Of a DNA stretch of 64,000 nucleotides, positions 1 to 57,105 are shown one piece after another. The DNA is from an uncultured Curvibacter sp. GTDB lineage: Bacteria; Pseudomonadota; Gammaproteobacteria; Burkholderiales; Burkholderiaceae_C. Numbering within the stretch: position 1 is the stretch's first letter; each line of letters begins with the position of its first letter. A model generated the notes under the pieces. That model had not been told where the DNA came from. It saw only the letters and a program-made list of their open reading frames with translations, and ran no database searches. The position numbers and the translations under genes were made by a program. The stretch covers positions 1-64,000 of the forward strand of contig CAIKMN010000019.1 of NCBI GenBank assembly GCA_903828535.1, written 5' to 3'.

Positions 1-361
1 AAAGGTCCGCAAAAGTTGGAGCAAACACAATGCCCTCGCGCTTGGCCAGTTGACGCACGTAAATGGCAGTGGGGTCACTGCGACGTCGCCGGGCTCGCTT
101 GAGGTGTTGAGTTCGCTGATGCTCCATTTTGGCCATGGCCTGTTCAAGCAACGCCTTTTGACCCATCTGCTCAACCTTGTCAGGTTTGGCATAGACGCCG
201 CGATCAAGTCGGATGATGAGACCCTTTTCGACCAAAGCTTTGAGCGCGGCAGAGACCTGGGTGGGGCTCCCGAAGTCATTGACGTCTGAGCGCAGCAGAA
301 CGCCATCTCGCCGAGGGCGGAGTGATTGCAAGATGCGTCCTTCGATGTCCATGTGGTTCAT
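1..361 (-). CDS. Winged-helix, DUF6088/AbiEi-antitoxin-like protein, truncated at left window edge
   Basis: Reverse-strand frame open from ATG at 361 to window edge, absent from the ORF track because it is truncated: MNHMDIEGRILQSLRPRRDGVLLRSDVNDFGSPTQVSAALKALVEKGLIIRLDRGVYAKPDKVEQMGQKALLEQAMAKMEHQRTQHLKRARRRRSDPTAIYVRQLAKREGIVFAPTFADL; 'L..LVEKGLIIRLDRGVYAKP' is the wHTH pattern of such antitoxin-like proteins. Confidence 0.65.
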   Translation of the reverse strand, partial: MNHMDIEGRILQSLRPRRDGVLLRSDVNDFGSPTQVSAALKALVEKGLIIRLDRGVYAKPDKVEQMGQKALLEQAMAKMEHQRTQHLKRARRRRSDPTAIYVRQLAKREGIVFAPTFADL

Positions 362-501
362 TGTATAGAATAAAAAAAGTCTATGCAAATCAATTGGTTA
401 CGAAAATATTTATGCCGGTAGTTTGGGCTCTTGCGGACGGCTCTTCATATTCGCTGTGCCCACCATATGCAAAGTGAGAAAGCACTCTCTCACTTTTTGA
501 A

Positions 502-545
502 GAACCCCGCTGAGGCCCAGTCTCTGCGGGGTTTCGCCGTTTTTA
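502..545. terminator. Hairpin, terminator-like, with no intact gene immediately beside it
   Basis: AACCCCGC...GCGGGGTT inverted repeat followed by a short T run; a second hairpin AAAGTGAGA...TCTCACTTT lies at 471-497. Confidence 0.45.
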
Positions 546-904
546 GATGTTGTATTCGCCCTAAAGCGACCACCTGAGTTAATCGATCAGGGTCAGCGCC
601 GACCGGAAGCCAGCTTCTCTTCGATCTTTTTCTGCACCCAGTCGGATACGTTTTTGTATTCGATCCGCTGGTATCACGATCAGCAAGCGCGGGAGAGGCT
701 ATTCCGCAGGGGGGACGTTTGTGCGAATTCGCATAATTTTAGATTCGATCAGATGAATTTTCGATGACATGGTGAAAATATTTATCGAAAATACTACGGT
801 TCTAACATTTCACTGACTGAGTTCGCCCCCTGAAAAACAGTCCCGTTGGTATTCCTTAAACTAACAAATTCTCAAGGAGGCTGTGGACTTCGCCAAAGCA
901 AAAA

Positions 905-1063
905 AGTGGATTGCGCGTTCGCCAGCAGCTGGACACGAGTTTTCCGACCGCGACAGCAGCGGTCAAGGTGCTGGAAGGTCTGGGCATCGTGGCTGAAATG
1001 ACGGGCCAGAAAAAGAACAGAAGTTACAGCTACCAGGCCTACGTCGAACTGCTCTTTCGGTGA
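905..1063 (+). pseudogene. C-terminal remnant of a Fic family protein
   Basis: In-frame SGLRVRQQLDTSFPTATAAVKVLEGLGIVAEMTGQKKNRSYSYQAYVELLFR* resembles the C-terminal wHTH of Fic family proteins; no Fic core (HPFxxGNGR) upstream. Confidence 0.7.
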
Positions 1064-1104
1064 CAAATACGCGCCATTTCGCGGCTTTTTTTCTATCTGG
1101 CGCC

Positions 1105-2364
1105 TCATTTCGAATCCACCCCATTCAACAAATAATCGAATAGCTGGTGGCTTTTGAGCACGCTCACTCCGGCTTTGATTTTGTAGGGGGTGTTCAGGGG
1201 GTGGTTAAAGATCAAGGGCACATGGGCTTCTGAGGTGCTGCCGTGGGTTCTGAGGCGATGCCCTTGCAGGCCCGAAAAATCGTGCCGATCGGCAGAGGTG
1301 CCGATGCAAACGTTTTTTCTGGCCACGACCGCCACGTCGCCTTCACGGTCGGGTGGGAGGTCAAACAAGCGACAAACGTTTTCTTTGTCTAAAACCAACT
1401 CGATGCCGTCAAGACTTGCCACTGCTTCGATCACTTGCTGAGGGGTCGTTTGACCTTGGCACCACACCCTCACAAACCCACCCAAGGCACCATGGTGGCC
1501 CACATAGGCATCGGTGATGGGGCAAATGACTTGAGCCGAGCCAACCCCTAATTTTTGATCCAAGACGTCTTGCAACCAAATGACATTCGGTTGACCGTCG
1601 GCGTTTGATTTGTCGCTCATGCCGTGGTCGGCTGTCAACGCCAGCAGCGCCCCCTTTTGGTCAAACTGTCCAAAGAGGTGGTCCAACGCTTGGTAAAAAT
1701 CTTGGGCCTCTTTTGCCTCAGGTGCGTATTTGTGTTGAACCCAATCCGTGAGAGACAAGTACATCAAGTCGGGCTTTTCCGTTTCCAATAATTGGAGTCC
1801 TGCTTGGAGCACAAACAAGGACAGCTCGGCGGAATAGACATCGGGCTGAGGCATGGCCAGCCTCGCCAACACATTTTCAATGCCGTTTTCTTGAAGGGTG
1901 CAACGGCTGGCTTGTTCTGCTGAGAATGAAATGTTGCCCAGGCTCATCTCTAAGTTTTTGCCGAGTTGTCGGCGCAACTTGTCTTTCGCAGTGATCGAAA
2001 TGACCTTGGCGCCAGCAGACGCAAATTGGGACAAGATGGTGTCGTTGCGCAGCAATTCAGGGCCCGTCATCACGACCGGTTTTCCGGTGTGGGTGTCCAA
2101 GTAAAAGTTGCCTGAAATGCCATGCTGTGAGACTGGCGTTCCCGTCACGATCGACATGTTGTTGGGACAAGTGAAACTGGGCATTGCCCCTTGTGCCACG
2201 GTACTGAAACCCTGCTCAATGAATTTGGAAATGTTCGGTATCAAGCCCAGGGCCGACAGCCCTTGAAGGTACTCGGGGTCACCCCCATCGATGCAAACCA
2301 CCACCGTTGGCTTTTGCGGCCAGCGGTAGGACGTACCGTTAACGACAACCTCAGTGGGCCTCAT
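1105..2364 (-). CDS. phnA: Phosphonoacetate hydrolase (alkaline phosphatase superfamily)
   Basis: VVVCIDGGDPEYL..., TADHGMS, HHGALGGF motifs; last gene of a phosphonate operon. Start probably MRPTEVVVNG rather than the longest ORF start. Confidence 0.85.
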   Translation of the reverse strand: MRPTEVVVNGTSYRWPQKPTVVVCIDGGDPEYLQGLSALGLIPNISKFIEQGFSTVAQGAMPSFTCPNNMSIVTGTPVSQHGISGNFYLDTHTGKPVVMTGPELLRNDTILSQFASAGAKVISITAKDKLRRQLGKNLEMSLGNISFSAEQASRCTLQENGIENVLARLAMPQPDVYSAELSLFVLQAGLQLLETEKPDLMYLSLTDWVQHKYAPEAKEAQDFYQALDHLFGQFDQKGALLALTADHGMSDKSNADGQPNVIWLQDVLDQKLGVGSAQVICPITDAYVGHHGALGGFVRVWCQGQTTPQQVIEAVASLDGIELVLDKENVCRLFDLPPDREGDVAVVARKNVCIGTSADRHDFSGLQGHRLRTHGSTSEAHVPLIFNHPLNTPYKIKAGVSVLKSHQLFDYLLNGVDSK

Positions 2365-3166
2365 GGCTGTTGGGTTTTTGGCCGGCCGCCAATCGTTGGT
2401 TGATCTGATCCAAAACAGGCAGTAAATCAGCCACCGAGTCAATCACGAAATCGGGTTGCATGGCGGCAAGGTCGGACCGAGCCTGCTGTTTTAAATCGCC
2501 CAATTCGGCTTCAGGCATTGCCTTCATTTCTTCGAGAGACAAACCCAAAGCATTGCCGCTGATGGCAACCCCAACGGTCCAGCAACCAAAGGCTTTGCCT
2601 TCGTCAATGCCGGGCAAGGTGTCGTCCACCTTGATGTACGAAAGCGGGTTGTCGATACCCAAAGCAACAGCACACTTTTGCATCATCTGTGGGGCGGGTC
2701 GACCCAATTCGGTCTCGCCGGCGCAAACAGAAAAATCAACCTGATAGCCTTGTTTTTGCGCCAAAGGAATCACCAAGTCCAACAACTCACGCGTATAGCC
2801 GGTGGTCGAACCGATTTTGATGTGCCGTTCACGCAGTGATTGAGACAAAGCAGGCATGCCTGGAATCAGATCACTGCACTCGACCACGCTGACTTTGTTG
2901 AAAGGAATAAAAACCGCCAAGAGCCGATCCACATCGGCCGCTTCGTGGGGGCGGCCATGCAATTGTTGCCACTGCGCCTGGACTTCAGGCAAATTCAACA
3001 GGGCATGGATGTGATCCCACTTGTTCATGCCCATAGGACCTCGGGCTTGTGAAATGGAAAGCGCCATGCCCTCGTCCCTGAACAAGCGCACAAAGGCATC
3101 CATGGGCGCTCGGCTGCCAAAGTCAACGGTGGTGCCTGCCCAATCAAAAATAACCGCCTCAATCAT
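2351..3166 (-). CDS. phnX: Phosphonoacetaldehyde hydrolase (HAD superfamily phosphonatase)
   Basis: MIEAVIFDWAGTTVDFGSRAP... is a PhnX signature; in operon. Confidence 0.92.
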   Translation of the reverse strand: MIEAVIFDWAGTTVDFGSRAPMDAFVRLFRDEGMALSISQARGPMGMNKWDHIHALLNLPEVQAQWQQLHGRPHEAADVDRLLAVFIPFNKVSVVECSDLIPGMPALSQSLRERHIKIGSTTGYTRELLDLVIPLAQKQGYQVDFSVCAGETELGRPAPQMMQKCAVALGIDNPLSYIKVDDTLPGIDEGKAFGCWTVGVAISGNALGLSLEEMKAMPEAELGDLKQQARSDLAAMQPDFVIDSVADLLPVLDQINQRLAAGQKPNSHEAH

Positions 3167-4311
3167 GTGGTCAACCATTCGTCAAAATTATCTTTGGCCA
3201 ATCCAAAGGCCGTGCTTGCCCCTGTACCGCTGCTCACCACGGCCACCCGCAACTGAGGCGACACCTTTTCAATGAAAGCGTCGTAGGCATCTGAAGATGG
3301 GTAAACACCGGTCCAGCGCTCGACCACGTTCAACGCCTTGATGTTCAGAACCTGGCGGAGCAAATCCAAAATAAGTTGATCGGTTTTCTCACTTGCAAAA
3401 ACATCCTCATAAGCGCCGTAACGGTGCGAATCGCCCACCACCAGCGTGCCGTCTTCACTCTGCACCACAATCAAATGGATGCCTTCTTTCAAATAATCAG
3501 GCATCTCTTTGGCAATTCGTTCTTTCAAGGCAGCGGCTTCTGGCAAGTTAGCCCATCCTAAATAGCGGGCCAAGCTGTTGTCGGTCATGACACTGCCCGG
3601 CAAGCGATAGCCCTCATCCACTTTGACGCGCAACATTTGAAGCGTGCACAACTTCAGCGGGCGATGGTGAAGGTAGGGCTTTGCAATGCCGGTCAAGGAG
3701 GCCCCCGGGCAAATCACCACTTTATCCGCCGAGAGATGGCCTTGTGAAGTTTTGATTTGTGAGCCTTCAATCGACAATACCGCGGTGTTCCAGCAGAAGT
3801 CTACGCCCCTCTTTTTTTCTAAATATTGGGCCAGCTGGGGAATCGCCTCGCGCGATTCAACCCTGAATTCATGCGGGCTGTAGAGCAAGCCGACGGAATT
3901 TTCAAGGTTCAAACTTAATGCGGGGTTGACCTCAAACTGATCCAATTTTGAATAGTCGGCCTTGGCAACATACTGACAATCCTTGCCCATTTCGGTTTTA
4001 AGAAAAGCCTTCGCCACTTCAGCCGCCTCGGGGCGCTCGCACAAGATCCATGTCCCTTGGTGCAATACTTTGATGGACGCCAGCTGGGCTAAATTTTTCC
4101 AAACTTGCGCCGAGTAGGCGGCTCTGCGCCAGGTGTCACCGGCCCTTTGGCCGGAGACAGTAATGAAACCGAAATTGCGAATCGAAGCCCCCACGCAGCG
4201 GTCGTTTTGCTCCACCACCAAGACCGATAAACCGCGTTGGCGGGCTTCATAGGCGTGGGCCATGCCGACGATGCCAGCGCCCACAATGAGTAAGTCGTAT
4301 TTTTTTTCCAT
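3163..4311 (-). CDS. FAD-dependent oxidoreductase of the TIGR03364 (phosphonate-cluster) type
   Basis: DLLIVGAGIVGMAHAYEARQRGLSVLVVEQ Rossmann motif, 'GASIRNFGFITVSGQ'; overlaps phnX. Confidence 0.85.
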   Translation of the reverse strand: MEKKYDLLIVGAGIVGMAHAYEARQRGLSVLVVEQNDRCVGASIRNFGFITVSGQRAGDTWRRAAYSAQVWKNLAQLASIKVLHQGTWILCERPEAAEVAKAFLKTEMGKDCQYVAKADYSKLDQFEVNPALSLNLENSVGLLYSPHEFRVESREAIPQLAQYLEKKRGVDFCWNTAVLSIEGSQIKTSQGHLSADKVVICPGASLTGIAKPYLHHRPLKLCTLQMLRVKVDEGYRLPGSVMTDNSLARYLGWANLPEAAALKERIAKEMPDYLKEGIHLIVVQSEDGTLVVGDSHRYGAYEDVFASEKTDQLILDLLRQVLNIKALNVVERWTGVYPSSDAYDAFIEKVSPQLRVAVVSSGTGASTAFGLAKDNFDEWLTT

Positions 4312-4312
4312 G

Positions 4313-5395
4313 TCAGACCTCGAACCCCGCAAAATTTTGACCCCGAGGCGTCATTTTCAAGGCCTCAATTTGTTGGCTGATCTGGCCCTCTGAGCCCTTT
4401 AGAGGGTGGACTGAAAATTTCATCTTCAAGAGCCAATCACGCATCGATTCAGGACCCGAGAAACAGTCTCCAACCGCCTTCATCACATTTTCCTTGATAA
4501 CGGCATCGCAAGCGCTGTCCATCAACAATTGCCAAACAAAAGGTAACCAATAGGCACAAGATTGTCCATGGCTTTTCAGGTTGGCGGCCGTCTCAGCGTA
4601 AGACAAGGCATGCGCCAATGCCGTTTGGGTTTTGGCCATCGCCAGGCCAGCAAGCAAGGCGGCTTCTGACAACCGTTCTCGTCTCGCCAGGTTGTCTAAG
4701 TCGTCTTCCAACAGAGGCAGTTCATGACAAATGATTTGCGCGGCCTCGATGGCCCAAAGCGCAGTCTGTCTGGTTTGATGGCGATTCCAAATCGCCTCCA
4801 AGGCATGTGACAAGGCATCGATGGCCGAATCTCGGGAAACGAGCCAAGGCGCACTGCAACAAAAAACCGGGTCGACCACCGCCACATTGGCCAAAACCTC
4901 AGGGCCAAAGAAAGCGTGTTTTTTTTGTTTTTCAAAGTTCCAAATGGTGGCCGTTGGCGTCACTTCACTGCCGGTTCCCGCCGTGGTTGGCATCAAGAGC
5001 AAGGGCACTTTTAAGCAATCACTTTTTTCAATGGCGACGTCCAGGTGCTGCTGAAGCCAGCCCTCTTGTGAAGGAACAAAACGCAATACCTTGACGAGGT
5101 CCATCAAGCTGCCACCGCCAAGGCCCAACAGCACGCTGTTTTGCGGGTCTTTGTCATGCCAAAACCCATCGTGTAGCGCTTGCACTTGGCCTAAATCGGG
5201 CATGCCCTGGCTGTAGAGCGTTTCGGATGCCAAGCGGCCTGACAAAGCAAGCCGAACATTTTCAAGTGCTTCGTCCTTGATTTCAGGAATTCGAACCCAG
5301 TGGAACTGCCGGCCGGGATACAAATCAGACAAAGCTTGAACAGCGTCAGTCCCAAAATGAATGATGGGATGAATACTGGGATCGAACATGGTCAA
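4313..5395 (-). CDS. Iron-containing alcohol dehydrogenase (phosphonoacetaldehyde reductase / HEP dehydrogenase-like)
   Basis: [16 protein letters not shown] and [16 protein letters not shown] motifs of Fe-ADH family; embedded in the phosphonate operon. Confidence 0.82.
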
Positions 5396-6204
5396 GTCAC
5401 GCGTTTCCTAAGGAAAGCAGAAATCAAATCAATGGCGGTGACGGTCCCGATCAAAATAATCAACACAGCGCATGTTTCTTGGTATTGAAAGCCGCGGATG
5501 ACTTCATAAAGTATCACGCCAATGCCCCCCGCTCCCACCATGCCCACAACGGAAGCAGAACGCACATTGGACTCAAACCGATAAAGCGAATAAGAGACCC
5601 ATAACGGCATGACTTGGGGCAAGATGCCAAAGACAACAGCCGCCATCGGGTGCGCGCCTGTGGCCTTAATGCCTTCAATGGGCCTCGGGTCTACTGCCTC
5701 AACGGCCTCGGAAAACAACTTGGCCAAAGTGCCTGTGGTGTGAACAAACAAAGCCAAAACGCCGGCAAATGGCCCCAAGCCGACCGCCACGATGAACAGC
5801 ATGGCAAATACCATTTCATTGATGGCGCGCAACGCATCCATCAGGCGGCGTATGGGTTGATAAACCCACGGGCTCACCACATTCGAAGAGCTCAATAAGC
5901 CCAAAGGCACTGCGGCCAAAATGGCCAGCAAAGTCCCCCAAATTGCGATTTGAAGGGTGACCATCATTTCGGCAACGTATAGCTTCCAGTCTTTGAAATG
6001 GGGCGGAAAGAAATCAGCTGCGTATTTCTTCATGTTCCCGGCATCTTTGATCAGATCAAGGGGCCGAATTTCAGCACCCTGCCAGGCCCACGCCAACACC
6101 AAGAAAAAAACAGCCCATCCGATGTAATAGGACAAGCCTTTTTTTTCTTCAAGAACGCGTGCATGCGCACGTGCCAGGGAAGCTTCTGTCGCCAAGGACC
6201 TCAT
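5392..6204 (-). CDS. phnE: Phosphonate ABC transporter permease PhnE
   Basis: Multi-TM protein, '[64 protein letters not shown]' permease loop; 4-bp overlaps with neighbours. Confidence 0.93.
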
Positions 6205-7148
6205 TTCAGTTTGGCCAGCGCTTCTTTCAGCTCAGCCATTTTTTTGGCTTTTTCAGCTTCACCCAAGGTGGTATCGGATTCTGTCTTGCGCAATTCTTTG
6301 TAGAGCTCCAACTGGCGGATGGGGTCCAGTTGGGCATTGGTCGAAGGTTTGAAACCACCATAGTTGTAGATGTTCTTCAGAACCGCCTTTTCTGCAGGGT
6401 CTGTTTTGGCGTAGTTGTAAATGAATTTTTTCAGCTTCTCTTTGGTGTCGCTGTCCAAGTCTGTGCGCCAAACAAAGGGATCGCTCGGGATCAAGGGGCT
6501 TTTCCACAAAACCTTGATTTCTTGAGCCATTTCGGGTTTGGTGGCGGTCAAGCGGTCAATTTCTTCAGTGTTGTTGGTGGCAACATCGAGTTGCTTGGCC
6601 AAAATGGCTTGCAAATTGGCGCCGTGGCTGCCGTTGCGAATGGTCTTAAATGTTTCTCTGGCATCCAGGTTTCTTTTGGCAAAGACGTAGTAATTGGGCA
6701 CCAAATAGCCTGAGGTGGAGTTGGGGTCACCCATGCCGAAGTTGATGTTTTTGCCATTGCGCAACACATCGTCCAAGTTGTTGTAGGGCGAATCTTTGGG
6801 TGCAATCAACAAGGAGTAATAGCCCATGGAGCCATCGGCGTAGACAATTTGCGCAAAGATTTCACCGTTGGCACGGTCCACAGCTTCCATCGCGGCCTTG
6901 TTGCCATACCAAGCCACTTGCACCTTGTTAAAGCGCATGGCTTCAATCACGCCGGCGTAGTCAGGGGCGTAGAAAGACTTGACGGTCAAACCCGTTTGCT
7001 TTTCCATGTCGCGGAAGAAGGGCTCCCAACGGTCGCGCTGCACCGAAGCCGAATCGGTCGAAATGATGCCGAAGTTAATTTCTTTGGCTTGCACGCCCAA
7101 GGCAGACAAGCCCAAAATGCCCGAGATCAAAATTTTGCTGAATTTCAT
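6201..7148 (-). CDS. phnD: Phosphonate ABC transporter substrate-binding protein PhnD
   Basis: Signal peptide; [60 protein letters not shown] typical PhnD. Confidence 0.93.
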
Positions 7149-7183
7149 GAAAACCTCTTAGTAAAAAAATAAACAAACCAAAA

Positions 7184-7957
7184 TTAGTCATTGCCGGAGA
7201 AACCATATAAATCAGTCAACTTGGCTTCATCTAAATGCGGAGTAGGCCCATCAAAAACCAAGCTGCCTTGGCTGAGTGCAATGGTTCTCTCGCAGTACTT
7301 TTGAGCAATTGGAATTTGATGCAGGCTGGTGATCAAGGTGAGGTTTAACGTCTTGGCCAACCCCAACAAGGTATCCATGACTTTTCTGGAAGACTCAGGG
7401 TCCAGCGAGGCGACGGGCTCGTCCGCCAGAACAATTTTGGCGCCTTTAATCAAAGCCCGAGCAATGGCCACCCGCTGCTGCTGCCCACCCGAAAGCGTTG
7501 ACGATTTTTGATAGGCCAAGTCCACCAAGCCCACTTTTTCTAATGAATCTAAACCCCGCGCTTTTTCTTCCAACGTAAAACGCCTGGTCATGATTTGAAA
7601 GGCGTTTTTCTGGGGGGTCAAGCCAATCAGCACATTGGTCAATACATCGAGTTGACCGACCAAATTGAATTGCTGAAAAATCACACCCATCTCTTGCCGA
7701 ATGCGTCGAATGCGGGGGGACAGTTCGCCTTTTGATTGAATCAACTGCTGATCCAAGAGCAGTTCACCGCTGGTTTTATCGAGTATTTCTAAACCACAAA
7801 TGGCTCTCATCAGCGTCGATTTTCCAGACCCAGAAGCGCCGATCAAAGCCACCGATTCACCCGCATTGATGTCAAAACTCACGTTATCAATGGCCTTGGT
7901 CACTCGGCCATGAGATTCAAAGGTTTTATTCGCGCTGCGAATGGCCAACATGCTCAC
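7184..7957 (-). CDS. phnC: Phosphonate ABC transporter ATP-binding protein PhnC
   Basis: Walker A GASGSGKST, signature LSGGQQQR, Walker B IVLADEP. Confidence 0.95.
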   Translation of the reverse strand: MSMLAIRSANKTFESHGRVTKAIDNVSFDINAGESVALIGASGSGKSTLMRAICGLEILDKTSGELLLDQQLIQSKGELSPRIRRIRQEMGVIFQQFNLVGQLDVLTNVLIGLTPQKNAFQIMTRRFTLEEKARGLDSLEKVGLVDLAYQKSSTLSGGQQQRVAIARALIKGAKIVLADEPVASLDPESSRKVMDTLLGLAKTLNLTLITSLHQIPIAQKYCERTIALSQGSLVFDGPTPHLDEAKLTDLYGFSGND

Positions 7958-8508
7958 ATCAAACTTTCAGCGAGTTGTTTGAAATCCGTCAGCATCTTGG
8001 CTTGGGTGGGCATGGGATGGAGGGTCGCTTTACCCTCGTCATCCCATTGACGCAAAGAAATTGCGTCTTGTGAGAAAGGCATTTTGATAAACGCCTTGCA
8101 TTCCACCTCGGTCATCGAGCCCCCTTGAAGGGCCAAGCTGCGCATTGAATCTTCAGACAATTGCGCTTGGTAGTCTCGATTCGTCGTGACCAGATAGCGC
8201 TTTGCCAGCACATGCAAAGCCACGGGCTGCACCACGGCGGGGGGGAGTTTTTGCGCCAAATAATGACTGCCCAAAACTTGGTGCTGGTCATCAATTCCCA
8301 CCACCGTGGGCGTCCCGATTTGGCCGGTTAACAAATGCCCAATGTCGTGCAACCAAGCGGCCATTTGCAACTCAGGCGAAGCCGCCTGCTGCTTCGCCAA
8401 CTGACCACACTGCCATGCATGAACCAACTGAGTGACGTTTTCGCCGTGGTACTGAAGATCACCTTTCTCTTGATAGAGATCGGCAATTTCTTGAAAGAAA
8501 ATTCTCAT
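7954..8508 (-). CDS. Phosphonate-operon HD-domain protein, PhnZ-like mixed-valent diiron oxygenase
   Basis: HDIGH motif; YHGENVTQLVHAWQC, AKRYLV, LSEDSMRSLALQGGSM and LRQWDDEGK resemble PhnZ (TIGR03276-type). Confidence 0.85.
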   Translation of the reverse strand: MRIFFQEIADLYQEKGDLQYHGENVTQLVHAWQCGQLAKQQAASPELQMAAWLHDIGHLLTGQIGTPTVVGIDDQHQVLGSHYLAQKLPPAVVQPVALHVLAKRYLVTTNRDYQAQLSEDSMRSLALQGGSMTEVECKAFIKMPFSQDAISLRQWDDEGKATLHPMPTQAKMLTDFKQLAESLM

Positions 8509-8592
8509 TCATTCATGATGACAGCGCATTGTTACGTGTTCGTGAAACAACCCGCACGCTTTCACAATCGCATCATCCCGCTGAAGCATCAA

Positions 8593-9972
8593 TCAATTTA
8601 ATTTCAACGCATGGCCTTCGGCATTTTTCAACTGAACGCCCAAGACTTTGGCCATCGTGGGGGCGATGTCTCGCATGTCGACCGTGCCTAAATTAGCGCC
8701 CTTTTTCTGGTTGGGGAATGAAACGAGCAGGGTCGCTTGCATCTCTGGGTTACTGGGTGAATAACCGTGCATCCCCTTTGATTTGCTGGGCGCCACCAGA
8801 GCGGCGGTGGGGTCGATGCCCATTTCATAACCCAATTTAAATTCAACCCAAAAATCGGCCAAAGGGTTACCCCCCCTTTGGCTGATCGTGGGTTTTTCGT
8901 AAACAGCGGCAATGCCCAGTTCAGGGGTGTTGCTGAGTTGGTCCAGAACGGCCTTGACTTTGGCGTAAGCGGCTTTGTCTGTTGGGTCTTTCAGAACGAT
9001 GGCCGCCGCGCCGCCGGCAAACCAAGGCGCCGCCGTCCAGCCCGTCACCTTCTTGCTGGCAACGTCGTATTGAATCAAGCCGTTTTGTAAAAAGGCGCCG
9101 ATCAGGTTGACGTCGTAGTTCACGGTCGAAAAACCGTGATCGGAGACCACGAAAACAACGGTTTTCGGATTAACCTTACGGGTTGTGACGATCATTTCGC
9201 CCAGCGTTTTATCCAAGGTCTTCAATATGTCTTTGGCTTGCTGGGTACCGGGACCGTAAATGTGTTGGTTGTGGTCCAAGGCGGTCAAATAAAAGGTAGA
9301 AAAATCAGGATGCTTGAGTTCGAGCAACGCTTGGGCGAATTGGGCTCGGTTCAGGTCTTCTTCCAGATCCTCCTTGATGCCTTGTGCATACGACAGGTTC
9401 AATTTCTTTTCTAATTCATCCTGAAGGCCCGGCGTAGAAAGGGCTCGGACCAGTTTCCGGTCGTCTTCGTGTCCAGTGCGCCAAATTTGGGGCAAAGAAA
9501 AGTCAATGGGTTCAGCCACGGTCACTGGCCAATGCACGTTGGCGGTTTTAAGCCCTGCTTTCCTGGCGGCATCGAACAGCGTTTGCGACTGGATGTCAGA
9601 TGCGTACCAATACCAACCGACTTGGTTGATGTTCATCGGATCAAAAGAGGTGTTTGAATAAACACCATGAACCGCGGGCGAACTGCCTGTGATCAAGGTC
9701 ACATGGCTGGGGTAAGTCAGGGTGGGCGTTACACCCACCACCCCTTGAGCAAAGTACCCATGCTCTCGCAGTGAGTTCAAAGTTGGTAATTCTTCAGCTG
9801 AAGCGCTCAGCCAATCAACAGGCCGAAGCCCATCGATGGAAATCAAAACAACCGGTGCTTTTTTGATGGGGAATTTAGCTTGATTTTCAGCATGGATGGA
9901 TTGCGCTGAGACACAAGTCGATACCAACAAAAACAGAGCGAGACGAGAAAAACGGGCGTGAATTAATTTCAT
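8593..9972 (-). CDS. Secreted alkaline-phosphatase-superfamily / nucleotide pyrophosphatase-phosphodiesterase-like protein
   Basis: N-terminal signal peptide; VVLISIDGLRPVDWL, GVTPTLTYPSHVTLITGSSPAVHGVYSN, VFVVSDHGFS, MHGYSP motifs. Confidence 0.87.
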   Translation of the reverse strand: MKLIHARFSRLALFLLVSTCVSAQSIHAENQAKFPIKKAPVVLISIDGLRPVDWLSASAEELPTLNSLREHGYFAQGVVGVTPTLTYPSHVTLITGSSPAVHGVYSNTSFDPMNINQVGWYWYASDIQSQTLFDAARKAGLKTANVHWPVTVAEPIDFSLPQIWRTGHEDDRKLVRALSTPGLQDELEKKLNLSYAQGIKEDLEEDLNRAQFAQALLELKHPDFSTFYLTALDHNQHIYGPGTQQAKDILKTLDKTLGEMIVTTRKVNPKTVVFVVSDHGFSTVNYDVNLIGAFLQNGLIQYDVASKKVTGWTAAPWFAGGAAAIVLKDPTDKAAYAKVKAVLDQLSNTPELGIAAVYEKPTISQRGGNPLADFWVEFKLGYEMGIDPTAALVAPSKSKGMHGYSPSNPEMQATLLVSFPNQKKGANLGTVDMRDIAPTMAKVLGVQLKNAEGHALKLN

Positions 9973-9974
9973 TC

Positions 9975-9993
9975 AAAGACTGTTGCAGTCTTT
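9975..9993. promoter_or_regulatory. Perfect inverted repeat directly upstream of the phosphodiesterase start codon
   Basis: AAAGACTG-TTG-CAGTCTTT ends 3 bp from the ATG (9970-9972, reverse strand). Confidence 0.45.
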
Positions 9994-10045
9994 TATTTCG
10001 AGGGCATGACAACGTGAACAAATTAAAAAATTGGCTCAAACACAA

Positions 10046-10063
10046 CAGTCATGGGCTCGTAAC
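10046..10063 (+). promoter_or_regulatory. Candidate Pho box
   Basis: CAGTCAT-GGGC-TCGTAAC: two 7-mers at 11-bp spacing resembling CTGTCAT/CTGTAAC half-sites (6/7 and 5/7), between the divergent operon and the receptor gene. Confidence 0.35.
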
Positions 10064-10114
10064 ACGCAGCCACAAAAATCAACTTGTTTTGTTTGTTAAA
10101 AAAAGGAAGCTCCC

Positions 10115-12382
10115 GTGAAAAGTTCTCTGCATCTTCAAAAGATTGGTTTCAGAAAATCAATCGTTTCGTCCTTGGTCTTGGCAGCATTTGTGCCAGCAAT
10201 GGCTTGGGCTCAAGCAGCCAACAATGGACCCGAGGAAGTCTTGGTCGTGGCCAACGGCAAGGGCATCTCGCGTCAAGTGGAAACCATTTCCAGCGTTGAG
10301 ATGAGTCAATTGCCTCCTGGCTCTAGCCCTCTTGCTGCTGTGTCCAGATTGCCCTCGGTGAATTTCCAATCCGCCGATACGTTTGGTGCTTATGAATGGT
10401 CTACCCGCATTTCGGTTCGCGGTTTTAACCAAAACTACTTGGGCTTCACTTTGGATGACGTGCCCTTGGGAGACATGTCTTATGCCAACTTCAACGGCCT
10501 GCACATCAGCCGTGCCATTTCCACTGAAAACATCAACAAAGTGGTTTTGTCAGCCGGTACAGGTTCCTTGAGCACCGCTTCTTCCAGCAACTTGGGCGGC
10601 ACGGTTCAGTTTTATTCAATTGATCCCGCCAAAAAGGGCGGTCTGTTTTTCAACTTGGGAACCGGCTCCTTCAGCGATCAACACGTCTTTGCCCGTTTGG
10701 AAACGGGTCAAACCGAGTTTGGCCGCGCCTACCTGAGCGTGACCAGCCAAGACTCCAACAAATGGAAGGGCTCAGGCCAAGACCGTCAAACCCAATTTAA
10801 CTTCAAGTACGTCAACGAAATCGGCAACAGCAAATTAACTGCTTTTGCCAATACCTCAGACCGTCGCGAAATTGATTATCAAGATTTGTCCTTGAACATG
10901 ATCAAGCAATTTGGCTACAAATTGGACAACACGTACCCCAACGTCACACAGGCATTGAACATTGCCAAAACCCAATGCGGTAATACCGTCAACGGCGTTC
11001 CCAGCACCTATTCTGCCGCTTGCGATTACCAATACTATGCCGGTTCAGGTCTTCGTCAAGACGGGTTGTATGGTGCCAGCTTGGCCAGCAATTTCTCGAA
11101 TGGTTTAAAAACCAAAGCCACCGTTTACTCACATCACGACAAAGGCGACGGCCTCTGGTACACGCCTTATGTCGCTTCGCCTGATGGGACGCCTCAGTCG
11201 CTTAGAACCACCGAATACCGTTTGAACCGAGACGGCGTGGTAGCGAATGCAGACTACCGCGTGGCCAATCATGCTGTCAAAGCAGCTGTTTGGTATGAAG
11301 ACAACCAATTCAACCAAGCCCGCCGTTTTTATGCGACTCCTGCATCCTCTTTCCCTTCGCCCTACGATTTTCCAAGCAATCCTTTTTACACGCAGTGGCA
11401 ACATCAATTTGGCACCAAGACCACTCAGTTTTCTCTAGAAGACAACTGGAGCGTCACCAAAGACTTGAATGTCAATTACGGCTTCAAATCACTTAAGCAA
11501 TCCACGAATGATGTTTTACAAGCGGGCTCGCCAGCTTCTTACCCACAGGGCAGCATCACCTCCAGCAAGCCATTCTTGCCTCAGTTGGGCTTGACCTATG
11601 CTTTGAATGATTCGTCTGAATTGTTTGCTGGCTACTCCAAAAACATGCGCGCTTTCCAAAGCTCAGTCGCCGGTCCTTATGGCACGACGGCCGCTGGTTT
11701 TAACGCCATTCGCTCCAGTTTGAAACCTGAAACCTCTGACACCTATGAAGGTGGCTGGCGTTTGAACAGCGCCGATAACCAAGCGGTTATCGCGCTTTAC
11801 AACGTGAACTTCCAAAACCGTCTGTTGTCGATTCAGCAAGGGGCCGGCATCGTGGGCAATCCTTCGGTGTTGGGCAACGTCGGTGGCGCTCGCATGACCG
11901 GTTTGGAAGTGTCTGACTCTTGGAAATTTGCCAAGGGCTACTCATGGTTCAATGGTGTGAACTTCAACAAGAACACTTACACCAGCGACTACGTGAGCAA
12001 TGGGACTACCTACAAAACGAATGGCAAAACCATCGTTGATTCCCCCACTCAAATGTGGAAGTCGATCGTCAGCTATGACGTGAACTCGGTCTTTGCCAAC
12101 GTCGGTGTGGACTACATGAGCAAACGCTTCTACAGCTACTCAAATGACGCTTCTGTCAGTGGCCGCACCTTGGTGAATGGCTCTGTGGGTTACCGCTTCG
12201 GTCAATACGCATCGTTCAGCGACTTGACCCTGCAACTCACAGGTTCCAACCTGACAGACAAACGTTATATTTCGACCATCGGAAGCAATGGCTTCACTTA
12301 CAGCGACCCCACTGGCGACGCTCAAACGGTGTTGCCAGGTGCGCCCCGGGCTTTCTTCCTGAGCCTGACGGGCAAGCTCTGA
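10115..12382 (+). CDS. TonB-dependent receptor
   Basis: GTG start with AAGGAAG RBS, signal peptide, plug domain (STRISVRGFNQNYLGFTLDDVPLGD), beta-barrel ending ...PRAFFLSLTGKL. Confidence 0.92.
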   Translation: MKSSLHLQKIGFRKSIVSSLVLAAFVPAMAWAQAANNGPEEVLVVANGKGISRQVETISSVEMSQLPPGSSPLAAVSRLPSVNFQSADTFGAYEWSTRISVRGFNQNYLGFTLDDVPLGDMSYANFNGLHISRAISTENINKVVLSAGTGSLSTASSSNLGGTVQFYSIDPAKKGGLFFNLGTGSFSDQHVFARLETGQTEFGRAYLSVTSQDSNKWKGSGQDRQTQFNFKYVNEIGNSKLTAFANTSDRREIDYQDLSLNMIKQFGYKLDNTYPNVTQALNIAKTQCGNTVNGVPSTYSAACDYQYYAGSGLRQDGLYGASLASNFSNGLKTKATVYSHHDKGDGLWYTPYVASPDGTPQSLRTTEYRLNRDGVVANADYRVANHAVKAAVWYEDNQFNQARRFYATPASSFPSPYDFPSNPFYTQWQHQFGTKTTQFSLEDNWSVTKDLNVNYGFKSLKQSTNDVLQAGSPASYPQGSITSSKPFLPQLGLTYALNDSSELFAGYSKNMRAFQSSVAGPYGTTAAGFNAIRSSLKPETSDTYEGGWRLNSADNQAVIALYNVNFQNRLLSIQQGAGIVGNPSVLGNVGGARMTGLEVSDSWKFAKGYSWFNGVNFNKNTYTSDYVSNGTTYKTNGKTIVDSPTQMWKSIVSYDVNSVFANVGVDYMSKRFYSYSNDASVSGRTLVNGSVGYRFGQYASFSDLTLQLTGSNLTDKRYISTIGSNGFTYSDPTGDAQTVLPGAPRAFFLSLTGKL

Positions 12383-12429: not shown

Positions 12430-13329
12430 TTAAAAAATATACCCAACGCTCATCACCATTTCATTGGATCTAACGTTTTGTGAAGCAGTGCCTTTGTAAA
12501 CAGGAATGTTCCGCATCGACGTATAAATTTGTTTGTTGGTCAGCTCTAAATAAATGGGTTTGACAGTCACGTAACGAAAGCCAAGTTCTTCACCCGTTGA
12601 GGTGCCAACGATGCGCCACCATCCCGAATTCGTACCCAGCAAGTTGGTTAAATTTTTATTGCCCACGCTGTTGGGTTGACCATTGATGTCAATCTCAGGG
12701 TGAACAATCGCCAGGCCGGTACCGACCTTGGCAATCAGCGACAGGCTGCTGCCTTCTTCTAAATTTCCCAACAGGGGTTTGCGGTAAAGCGCGCTGACCA
12801 TGACGTGGTTCAGGCCGTTGTGAAGCAGGTAAGTGAAATAGTGGGTGCTCAAGGTTTTGAGACCCACGCCGCCGGCGTTGGTGCCTGTGACCAAGGCCGT
12901 TTGGTTCAAGGTGCTGGTGAATTTGGTGTGGTCCAAGCTCAAGTCCAAGGCCCAGTTTTTGTTCTCATCGAAAAAACGACCGACCCGAACGTTATCGGGC
13001 GTACAGCAAACGGGGGACTTGAATTCATCGTGGCCTTGCATGTTGTGGACCACGAAGTCATTGTTCAAACTGGGCTGTGAAACATGGACATCAGAGGGGT
13101 GGTAATGGGTTTTGTCATAACCCCAAGAGGCATACCACTCGCCTTGCGTGAAAAACGCATGGGTCGACTTGAAGAATGCATTTTCGTTGCTGGCGTCGGT
13201 TTGTGCGAGCACCGGGCTGGCCATGGCGCAACCGATAAACAGGAGCCCCAAGAAGCGAAAAACCGGCACAAATAAACGGGAACAGGAGGTGGTTTGGAGG
13301 GACATGGAAAGCATACTTTTTAGATTCAA
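12430..13329 (-). CDS. Predicted outer-membrane beta-barrel protein, unknown function
   Basis: Signal peptide (FLGLLFIGCAMASPVLAQ), aromatic beta-strand pattern and C-terminal ...MVMSVGYIF (terminal Phe). Confidence 0.7.
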   Translation of the reverse strand: MNLKSMLSMSLQTTSCSRLFVPVFRFLGLLFIGCAMASPVLAQTDASNENAFFKSTHAFFTQGEWYASWGYDKTHYHPSDVHVSQPSLNNDFVVHNMQGHDEFKSPVCCTPDNVRVGRFFDENKNWALDLSLDHTKFTSTLNQTALVTGTNAGGVGLKTLSTHYFTYLLHNGLNHVMVSALYRKPLLGNLEEGSSLSLIAKVGTGLAIVHPEIDINGQPNSVGNKNLTNLLGTNSGWWRIVGTSTGEELGFRYVTVKPIYLELTNKQIYTSMRNIPVYKGTASQNVRSNEMVMSVGYIF

Positions 13330-53924: not shown

Positions 53925-54033
53925 GAATAACTCCTGCCAACTCAATTGGGCAATTTCTTTGAATCCGCTATTAAAACAGAAGTTGACCCCAACCATGCAA
54001 AAGGCGGCGACAAAAGGAGGGGCTCAACAGCAA

Positions 54034-54066
54034 AAAAGCCCATTCTTTTGGAAAGAATGGGCTTAA
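54034..54066 (-). terminator. Terminator downstream of tRNA-Met
   Basis: AAGCCCATTCTTT..AAAGAATGGGCTT stem with T run on the minus strand. Confidence 0.85.
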
Positions 54067-54071
54067 TAAAC

Positions 54072-54148
54072 TGGTGGCGCTTCACGGATTCGAACCGCGG
54101 ACCTGTGGATTATGATTCCATCGCTCTAACCGACTGAGCTAAAGCGCC
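54072..54148 (-). tRNA. tRNA with CAU anticodon, probably tRNA-Met (77 nt incl. encoded CCA)
   Basis: GGCGCTTTAGCTCAGTCGGTTAGAGCGATGGAATCATAATCCACAGGTCCGCGGTTCGAATCCGTGAAGCGCCACCA folds as cloverleaf. Confidence 0.95.
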
Positions 54149-54433
54149 GAGCCGGAAAGTATAGCAAATTTTGCAAGACTGGGCGGCCACTCCAAAGTCC
54201 TGGCATAAGAAATAACGTACCCCAAACCTGGGGGCTTCAGCGCGCTTAAAGCGCCGCGTTTTTGGGCTTTCAATTCGCCTTCGCATCGAAGATGAGCAAG
54301 GCACATTGGTGCACAGCGACCCTGATTGAAAGCAGCGATCCGATCGCCCCACGTCAATGGCCCCAGTGAATTATTTGGAGAACCGGCGGTTGGCTTTATC
54401 ATGACAAGGCCTTTATTCAACAAAGCCATCAAG

Positions 54434-55030
54434 ATGCCAAACCGCCCTTTGACCCGCGTTTTATCAGCCATCGTTTTGGGACTGGTCGCCGGTTCTGCAC
54501 AAGCCCACACCGGCCACGGAGCCTCTGGTTTTTTTGAGGGGCTTTCACACCCCTTTGGTTTAGACCATTTGCTGGCCATGGTGGCGGTTGGCATTTGGTC
54601 TGTTTCGGCGTTGCCCGCGCAAAAGGTGGGGGCTGGCCCTGCCACTTTTCTGGCCAGCTTGCTTTTAGGTGCCGCTTTGGGCGCCATCGGCGTGACCGTA
54701 CCCTACCTGGAAAACATGGTCTCGCTCAGCGTGCTGGTCTTCGGCGCAATGCTCGTTTTGGCACCCGTGTCAATGACACCCCAATGGGGTCTGCCTCTGA
54801 TTGCCTTGGGAGCCGTCCTGCATGGCTTGGCCCATGGTTCAGAAAGCCCTGAATCAGGCTTTGCGGCTTATGCAGCGGGCTTTTTTCTGACCACTGCTGC
54901 CCTCCATGGCGGGGGCGTTATGGCTGCTGTGGGCCTGCGTCGTTGGTTGCCCAATTTGTCGGGGCGCATCACCGCTTTTCTAGGCATTTTGTTTGGCGGA
55001 ACGGGGCTGTATCTTTTTAGCCAAATTTAA
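54434..55030 (+). CDS. HupE/UreJ family protein
   Basis: AHTGHGASGFFEGLSHPFGLDHLLAMVAVGIWS; LHGLAHGSE. Confidence 0.92.
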   Translation: MPNRPLTRVLSAIVLGLVAGSAQAHTGHGASGFFEGLSHPFGLDHLLAMVAVGIWSVSALPAQKVGAGPATFLASLLLGAALGAIGVTVPYLENMVSLSVLVFGAMLVLAPVSMTPQWGLPLIALGAVLHGLAHGSESPESGFAAYAAGFFLTTAALHGGGVMAAVGLRRWLPNLSGRITAFLGILFGGTGLYLFSQI

Positions 55031-55052
55031 GTTTTGAAGGAAAAAGCCTTCT

Positions 55053-55077
55053 CCTCACTGAACCTGTGAGGTGTTTT
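55053..55077 (+). terminator. Terminator after hupE-like gene
   Basis: CCTCAC-TGAACCT-GTGAGG-TGTTTTT, nested within AAAAAGCC/GGCTTTT. Confidence 0.7.
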
Positions 55078-55179
55078 TGGCTTTTCGTCACCGTCATTTA
55101 AGCTCAGTGGTGTACTGTGCGCTTCAAGATCACGCCGTTGAGAATTCAAAAAAGTGCCCATTCAATTGACAATCATTCA

Positions 55180-57105
55180 ATGTTTCAATTAAAAGTTTAT
55201 AAATTCTTTATTTCGTTGTTCTTTTCGCTCTTTTTAATGGATCAGGCCATGTCCATTAATTTGAATAAAGGTTTGAATGATCACGATCAAGGCAATAGCA
55301 TTACCAATTTTGTGCTGACTGCAGAAAAAACCCATTATGCTGAAACGGGAACTTATGCTGAAGTCGAAAGTTATTGCCAAAAAATGGCCTCAAGTTTTCC
55401 CAATGCGGTGAGCTGCCAAACCCTGGGTCGCACATCAGAGGGTCGCAAAATTCAATACATGGTTATTTCCAAAAAAGGAATCCAAGCACCCCAAATTTCC
55501 CCAAAGAAGAAAGCCCCTGTTGTACTCATTATTGCAGGAACCCATGCGGGAGAAGTGGATGGAAAGGACGCCAGTCTTCTTTATTTCAGGGATCTAATGA
55601 CCAGCAAAAAACAAGACAACCCATTAAATCATTTAACCGTTATCTGGGTCCCTGTTTTTAACGTCGATGGTCATGAACACCGAGGTCGCTTTCATCGACC
55701 GAATCAGAATGGACCGTATGAACAAGGTGAAAGAGTCAACGGCAGACGTATTAATTTGGCGCGAGATTGGATGTTTGCTCAATCAGCAGAAATGAAAGGG
55801 ATGCTCGGCTTGGTAAAGGCCTGGGATCCCTCAGTTGTCGTTGATTTGCATGTCACGGATGGACTCCGATTCCGACATGACGTTTCAATTTCCGCCGCCC
55901 CTGATTTTGGCGGGGATTATCAATTAACTGAGGTCACCAGAGGTTTATTGGATGAGGTTCTTCAAAATTTGAAGCAAAGCGGCCACACACCGCTGGGTTT
56001 CTATCCACGCCTTAAAGACAAAGAAGATCCAAAAGCAGGCATGGTCTTGGATGTCGATAAACCTCGATTTGCCCATTCCTACGCGGCTTTTCGCAATCGA
56101 ATTGGCTTTTTAGTTGAAGACCATGCCTGGGAGCCTTATGCATCAAGAACAAAAACTTGCTTTGATACTTTGGATTCAATTCTAAAAACGATTGTTCTTC
56201 ATTCCAATCAAATTCTCCAAACCGAAACCTTTGCTGATCATGAAGCCAGCAAGTTAGCGGGTCGTTATTACGCGCTGGATTACGAGACCGATATCGACAG
56301 CGAAGTACCTCCCAAAAAAATTGAGCTGCTTGGCTATAAATACCAAATACTCGATCCGGCTCCGATTATTGGTGGGCGATTCATCAGTTATGACTTGACT
56401 CAAGAAGAACTGTGGCAAATTCCTTTTTATGATCAAGTGGCGCCCCTCAAGGAAACCATCACCACCTTACCAAGAGGGGGTTATCTCATACCGTCGGCAT
56501 GGACGGAGGTCGTCAAGCCTTATTTAGATTTGCACGGCATTAGATACAAGACCCTTCAATCCACAACGCAGCATGTTGAACTTCATGCTTACCACGTTGA
56601 TCCTTCGACCGTTGACTATGATTCGAGTAGCTTTCAAGGCCGCCAAAGAGTCGCCATACAAGGTGAATGGCAACCGCAGACAGATGCCCTCCAAAAGAAT
56701 TCCATTTTTGTCCCCATTGACCAGCCTAAAGCGCTCTTGGCGGTTCACTTACTCGAACCCATGGGGCCGGATTCGCTTTCAGCCTGGGGGCTTTTTAATA
56801 CGGCCTACGAAATCAATGACTACATGGCCAATCACCGTTCGCTTGAAGTGATTCGTTGGATGTATGAAGAGAATCCAAAAATCAAAGCGCTTTACGGTGA
56901 AAATTTGTTCAAAAAATTACCTCAAATCCGAAAAGACTATGAGCAACTATTAAGCAATGATGAGGGTTTTAGGCTTGACACCAATGCGCGTTTGGATTTT
57001 TGGATTTCTCGCCTGCCTCCACAAGACCCCTCTTTGAATATCTATCCCATCAAAAGAGTCGAAAAGCTGAATCAAAAAGCCCTGGTGTTCTTTTCTGCCC
57101 ACTGA
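55180..57105 (+). CDS. M14-family zinc carboxypeptidase-like secreted protein
   Basis: Signal peptide; GRTSEGRKIQYMVIS, VLIIAGTHAGEVDGKDA, VDLHVTDG. Confidence 0.85.
   Translation: MFQLKVYKFFISLFFSLFLMDQAMSINLNKGLNDHDQGNSITNFVLTAEKTHYAETGTYAEVESYCQKMASSFPNAVSCQTLGRTSEGRKIQYMVISKKGIQAPQISPKKKAPVVLIIAGTHAGEVDGKDASLLYFRDLMTSKKQDNPLNHLTVIWVPVFNVDGHEHRGRFHRPNQNGPYEQGERVNGRRINLARDWMFAQSAEMKGMLGLVKAWDPSVVVDLHVTDGLRFRHDVSISAAPDFGGDYQLTEVTRGLLDEVLQNLKQSGHTPLGFYPRLKDKEDPKAGMVLDVDKPRFAHSYAAFRNRIGFLVEDHAWEPYASRTKTCFDTLDSILKTIVLHSNQILQTETFADHEASKLAGRYYALDYETDIDSEVPPKKIELLGYKYQILDPAPIIGGRFISYDLTQEELWQIPFYDQVAPLKETITTLPRGGYLIPSAWTEVVKPYLDLHGIRYKTLQSTTQHVELHAYHVDPSTVDYDSSSFQGRQRVAIQGEWQPQTDALQKNSIFVPIDQPKALLAVHLLEPMGPDSLSAWGLFNTAYEINDYMANHRSLEVIRWMYEENPKIKALYGENLFKKLPQIRKDYEQLLSNDEGFRLDTNARLDFWISRLPPQDPSLNIYPIKRVEKLNQKALVFFSAH

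Follow-up and report, generated by a model that had tools for sequence, protein, structure and literature searches.

In the phosphonatase clusters of Achromobacter, PhnX is encoded together with HpnW and PhnHD (PMC11203657). PbfD1 belongs to TIGR03364, and enzymes of the PbfD type have been shown by experiment to convert N-methyl-AEP (M1AEP) directly to phosphonoacetaldehyde (PAA) without PhnW; PbfD2 accepts AEP too, and replaces PhnW where PhnW is missing (PMC10590968). PhnZ is reported to tolerate some substrates but to be specific for (R)-alpha-hydroxyphosphonates (PMC10574752). In a survey of phosphonate-cycling genes in genomes, phnA and phnX occurred together in 6-12%, and phnZ with either phnA or phnX in 30-50% (PMC9381506). 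The combination of phnA and phnX is thus uncommon but known at the genome level.

We analysed a window of 64,000 nucleotides, the whole stretch of DNA considered here, from a betaproteobacterium that is kin of freshwater Polynucleobacter. Its minus strand carries nine ORFs between 9972 and 1105, all in the same direction. Families were assigned by NCBIfam/Pfam profile search with curated cut-offs in bits. In order of transcription the genes are:

8593..9972, minus strand: NPP-type phosphodiesterase with an apparent signal peptide (PF01663)
7954..8508, minus strand: Phn-HD, PhnZ/TmpB-like mixed-valence diiron oxygenase of 184 aa, heading the conserved operon (TIGR03276)
7184..7957, minus strand: PhnC, phosphonate ABC transporter ATPase (TIGR02315)
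6201..7148, minus strand: PhnD, periplasmic phosphonate-binding protein (TIGR03431)
5392..6204, minus strand: PhnE, permease (TIGR01097)
4313..5395, minus strand: iron-containing alcohol dehydrogenase (Fe-ADH), proposed 2-hydroxyethylphosphonate/phosphonoacetaldehyde oxidoreductase (TIGR03405 nearest, under the cut-off)
3163..4332, minus strand: FAD-dependent amine oxidase of HpnW/PbfD type, proposed source of phosphonoacetaldehyde (TIGR03364)
2351..3178, minus strand: PhnX, phosphonoacetaldehyde hydrolase of the HAD type (TIGR01422)
1105..2364, minus strand: PhnA, phosphonoacetate hydrolase (TIGR02335)

As a preliminary description of this DNA had stated, the nine genes are co-directional; from HD to PhnA their ends overlap or almost touch. 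The intergenic distances (negative for overlaps) are -4 bp for HD/PhnC, +35 for PhnC/PhnD, -4 for PhnD/PhnE, -4 for PhnE/ADH, -20 for ADH/FAD, -16 for FAD/PhnX and -14 for PhnX/PhnA. The last value takes the ATG at 2364 (MRPTEVVVNG...) as the PhnA start, which is probable; the frame itself is open from 2442. Three C-P-cleaving enzymes of distinct families are encoded in this one operon, which is real and looks functional. A Pho box scan of the whole window gave 2 weak matches, with 3.2 expected by chance and none upstream of the operon, and promoter and terminator scans stayed at background level. Base 1 of the window is the end of the contig (C19), and the neighbourhood past PhnA falls outside it.

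The uptake genes are well supported by their profiles: PhnD scored 324 bits against TIGR03431 (cut-off 261) and matched PDB 3n5l/3p7i at E<1e-100, PhnE scored 300 bits against TIGR01097 (cut-off 217), and PhnC, with 265 bits, fell just below the TIGR02315 cut-off of 266. The NPP gene sits 84 bp upstream of HD and may be co-transcribed with the operon. Its product scored 157 bits against PF01663 and resembles bacterial and animal NPP phosphodiesterases. It was rejected as a PhnA or as an enzyme of the conserved operon because it reached only 67 bits with the PhnA model TIGR02335 (cut-off 408) and is not kept with the operon in relatives, where no NPP relative at >=100 bits was found among the related loci. 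The NPP gene is divergent from a TonB-dependent receptor (10115-12382, plus strand) and could free phosphate or phosphonate from esters. A 299 aa protein beyond the receptor (12430-13329, minus strand) had no Pfam match.

The preliminary description had pointed out that the operon lacks PhnW, a PhyH-type PhnY and a PAA dehydrogenase, and this is borne out, with PhnJ missing too. The search was extended to the whole genome (2.34 Mb in 36 contigs, 99.99% complete), and none of the three feeders passed its family threshold there. For PhnW, the best class V aminotransferase (PF00266) candidate in the whole genome reached 60-80 bits against cut-offs of 361-401, and a direct search of the genome gave nothing at E 1e-20. 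The class V aminotransferase L008 (G000:C22:76327-77109) was rejected as PhnW, since PhnW/AepZ are its nearest models and it lies far below their cut-offs. The best genome score for PAA dehydrogenase was 299 bits against a cut-off of 636; the PhyH domain of PhnY* (PF05721) had no match in the whole genome, and a family search for PhnJ found none. The genome falls outside the PhnWX pathway for want of PhnW, outside PhnWYA for want of PAA dehydrogenase, and outside PhnY*/PhnZ for want of a PhyH-type 2-oxoglutarate oxygenase partner. In 12 related genomes PhnW was likewise absent or under the cut-off, making 13 of 13 with this genome. The genome has four genes of the class III aminotransferase fold. 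Three of them, ArgD, BioA and HemL, have housekeeping roles; the fourth, L024 (G000:C10:70590-71750), is a weak match in a 562 aa open frame that no NCBIfam model fits at E 1e-60, and PbfA is unlikely as a further feeder.

It had been concluded from the operon that the feeder reactions must be unusual or encoded elsewhere. The genome-wide absence of the canonical feeders agrees with this, but the conclusion overlooked an FAD oxidase within the operon itself: PhnC/D/E, PhnX, PhnA and HD had been named, whereas the FAD oxidase and the Fe-ADH, the likely feeders, had been left out. The FAD protein scored 395 bits against TIGR03364 (cut-off 285), which places it in the HpnW/PbfD FAD oxidase family, and its gene adjoins PhnX in Polynucleobacter and many Burkholderiales. 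Within this order an HpnW/PbfD oxidase often takes the place of PhnW, and HD often occurs without PhnY*; both are on record for Achromobacter (PMC11203657). By analogy with PbfD, and from its family and context, it would make PAA from N-methyl-AEP; it could be PbfD1-like, a subgroup usually accompanied by PhnW. With an FAD oxidase of the PbfD family inside the operon, the puzzle of the missing feeder largely dissolves. PhnX, which would receive the PAA, scored 322 bits against TIGR01422 (cut-off 220) and retains D12, K53 and H56 in alignment with B. cereus-type PhnX.

The Fe-ADH lies outside its nearest family, the PsrA type (TIGR03405; 217 bits against a cut-off of 424), with the metal ligands D193, H197, H262 and H276 all in place. 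It adjoins FAD-PhnX in about eleven related loci, and on Variovorax and Ensifer plasmids PsrA-type relatives are neighbours of PhnA and PAA dehydrogenase. The enzyme probably oxidises 2-hydroxyethylphosphonate (2-HEP) to PAA, a direction that fits all these contexts.

The HD protein scored 207 bits against TIGR03276, just below the curated cut-off of 214.6, and its structural relatives in the PDB are TmpB and PhnZ. Residues Y24/E27/H34/H58/D59/H80/H104/K108/S126/Q133/D161 of PhnZ correspond to Y20/E23/H30/H54/D55/H76/H99/K103/S121/Q128/D156 of HD, so that the six metal ligands and the substrate-binding residues of a PhnZ-type diiron oxygenase are conserved. Strong Phn-HD matches were found in 62 genomes besides this one, among 399 of the order. 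Only one of the 62 (G144) has a PhyH gene directly adjacent to HD, another (G131) has one within 10 kb of it, and 16 have no PhyH gene whatsoever; with adjacency in a single genome, an orphan HD is the rule in this order. Given the specificity of PhnZ, the simplest reading is that HD directly uses an imported hydroxyphosphonate. HD most likely acts on imported alpha-hydroxyphosphonates, which it can use without strictly needing a feeder.

PhnA scored 518 bits against TIGR02335 (cut-off 408), matched 1ei6/3szy at E~1e-112, and in alignment with 1ei6 keeps the nucleophile T91 (PSFT motif) and the metal residues D52, D233, H237, D272, H273 and H400. The family assignments of the preliminary description hold for PhnC/D/E, PhnX, PhnA and HD, with PhnC and HD just under their cut-offs, and the catalytic residues of the last three agree with them. 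A PAA dehydrogenase accompanies PhnA in 20 of the 27 PhnA loci and is absent from the four that have PhnX (Fisher p = 0.002, which is only a guide, as the loci were chosen via HD, FAD or ADH matches and many are related). PhnX and PAA dehydrogenase share no locus among the collected neighbourhoods, and no PAA dehydrogenase over the cut-off was found in the genomes of L126, L129, L168 and L177. In the PhnA tree the five PhnX-associated rows, the window included, occupy two separate positions, so that a minimum of two changes is needed. The arrangement of PhnX beside PhnA without the usual aldehyde dehydrogenase therefore arose at least twice and is mildly new, and PhnA seems to have been retained on two or more occasions in a setting where PAA is handled by PhnX. 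In one genome of the set (G005; L108, L112), several copies of PhnA, from the same clade as that of the window, lie near transporters and HD, and no PAA dehydrogenase was found in that genome.

We consider it likely that the operon is a phosphonate-scavenging unit that broadens the substrate range of a PhnW-less phosphonatase pathway. PhnCDE would bring phosphonates in, and the FAD oxidase of PbfD/HpnW type would stand in for PhnW by converting N-methyl-AEP, and probably also AEP, to PAA. The Fe-ADH would probably add PAA made from 2-hydroxyethylphosphonate, and PhnX would split PAA into acetaldehyde and phosphate. Without dedicated feeders, PhnA would cleave imported phosphonoacetate, and HD would act on an alpha-hydroxyphosphonate taken up from outside, for example (R)-1-hydroxy-2-AEP. 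This proposal builds on the observed gene content, operon packing, catalytic residues, conserved architecture and genome-wide absence of the classical feeders; all substrates, expression, and the direction in which the dehydrogenase works are predicted from sequence. A classical branched pathway, in which PhnW, PAA dehydrogenase and PhnY* from other parts of the genome supply PhnX, PhnA and HD, would invoke the textbook feeders and the frequent pairing of PAA dehydrogenase with PhnA. It is strongly disfavoured and highly improbable, as none of these feeders exceeds its family threshold in a genome that is 99.99% complete.

The individual enzymes also admit other roles. It is unlikely that PhnA is a relic, or is fed from PAA by a general-purpose aldehyde dehydrogenase, after PhnX displaced PAA dehydrogenase in an older FAD-ALDH-PhnA cluster. 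Some of its closest relatives do belong to FAD+ALDH clusters that have no PhnX (L134, L166), PhnX and ALDH never occur in the same locus in this set, and several full-length aldehyde dehydrogenases in the genome (L013-L016) include candidates for a generic enzyme that could feed PhnA from PAA. However, PhnA is intact in all the catalytic residues checked and is kept beside PhnX in two separate lineages, which argues against a relic, and the aldehyde dehydrogenases of the genome are unlike PAA dehydrogenase, at less than half its cut-off score. PhnA most likely acts on imported phosphonoacetate, a substrate for which it strictly needs no feeder, and we favour this over supply by a generic aldehyde dehydrogenase and over gradual loss. 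In Salmonella, deletion of phnA left growth on phosphonoacetate unaffected (PMC5351497), so the in vivo role of PhnA is not always as annotated. We likewise doubt that the Fe-ADH works in reverse, as a PhpC-like PAA reductase that makes 2-hydroxyethylphosphonate or clears excess aldehyde instead of feeding PhnX: one of its distant relatives is annotated as a 'phosphonoacetaldehyde reductase', and phpC within AEP catabolic operons has been proposed to serve AEP re-use (ISME J, PMC9381506), but the gene stands among catabolic and uptake genes, by FAD-PhnX here and, in relatives, by PhnA-PhnY in the Variovorax and Ensifer plasmids. More tentatively, the Phn-HD proteins of the order could be, rather than halves of a PhnY*/PhnZ pair, stand-alone enzymes for an environmental, possibly uncharacterised, alpha-hydroxyphosphonate. 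The operon would then be a scavenging unit for multiple substrates that retained PhnA as PhnX took the place of PAA dehydrogenase.

In a scan with the FAD protein, the order HD-PhnC-PhnD-PhnE-ADH-FAD-PhnX recurred in three Polynucleobacter species, P. nymphae (L127), P. campilacus (L128) and P. cosmopolitanus (L131), and in a lake MAG (L130); in none of them does PhnA stand next to PhnX in the stretch examined. A Burkholderiaceae MAG (L129) has all eight genes, PhnA included, and the operon is found in mosaic form in Rhodoferax (L177), Xenophilus (L168) and Rubrivivax (L193), among others. In a MAG filed as Curvibacter (L126), whose FAD protein is 94% identical, the contig begins inside the FAD gene and continues as FAD-PhnX-PhnA; the frames past PhnA, read by eye, are unlike phosphonate genes, which suggests that the operon ends after PhnA. 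The G+C content over the operon (window 1-12000) is ~50-53%, against 57-58% across most of the remaining window. Together with the presence of the closest complete operons in Polynucleobacter, this suggests, but does not prove, that the operon was gained by lateral transfer. A second G+C dip, to 48% at 54001-57000, contains a tRNA gene (54075-54148) and is possibly acquired DNA.

Even with neither PhnW nor C-P lyase, such betaproteobacteria may be able to use several phosphonates as sources of phosphate. The operon requires no new chemistry, and it offers a test case for the role of Phn-HD without PhnY* and of PhnA without PAA dehydrogenase.

The nearest described systems share much with the window. 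The Polynucleobacter operons (L127, L128, L131) have the same gene order, with FAD identities of 62-72%, and differ in the missing PhnA next to PhnX. The Achromobacter clusters (PMC11203657), a direct precedent, are alike in combining PhnX with a TIGR03364 flavin oxidase that replaces PhnW and a TIGR03276 HD oxygenase; the window adds PhnA and the Fe-ADH and has PhnCDE inside a tight single-strand operon, and its genome is without any PhnW, whereas Achromobacter has PhnW elsewhere. In the PbfD2-PhnX and PbfD2-PhnY-PhnA pathways (PMC10590968), PAA is made from M1AEP/AEP by FAD oxidation without PhnW, as would be the case here by analogy, but the window has PhnX and PhnA together and no PAA dehydrogenase. 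The oxidative PhnY*/PhnZ, TmpA/TmpB and GmPhnY*/GmPhnZ pathways contain an HD oxygenase whose metal and substrate residues are shared by the one here, and the window genome differs from them in having no PhyH-type hydroxylase. With its parts known and related operons in relatives, the locus is mostly explained, as a modest variant of the known PhnW-less phosphonatase clusters.
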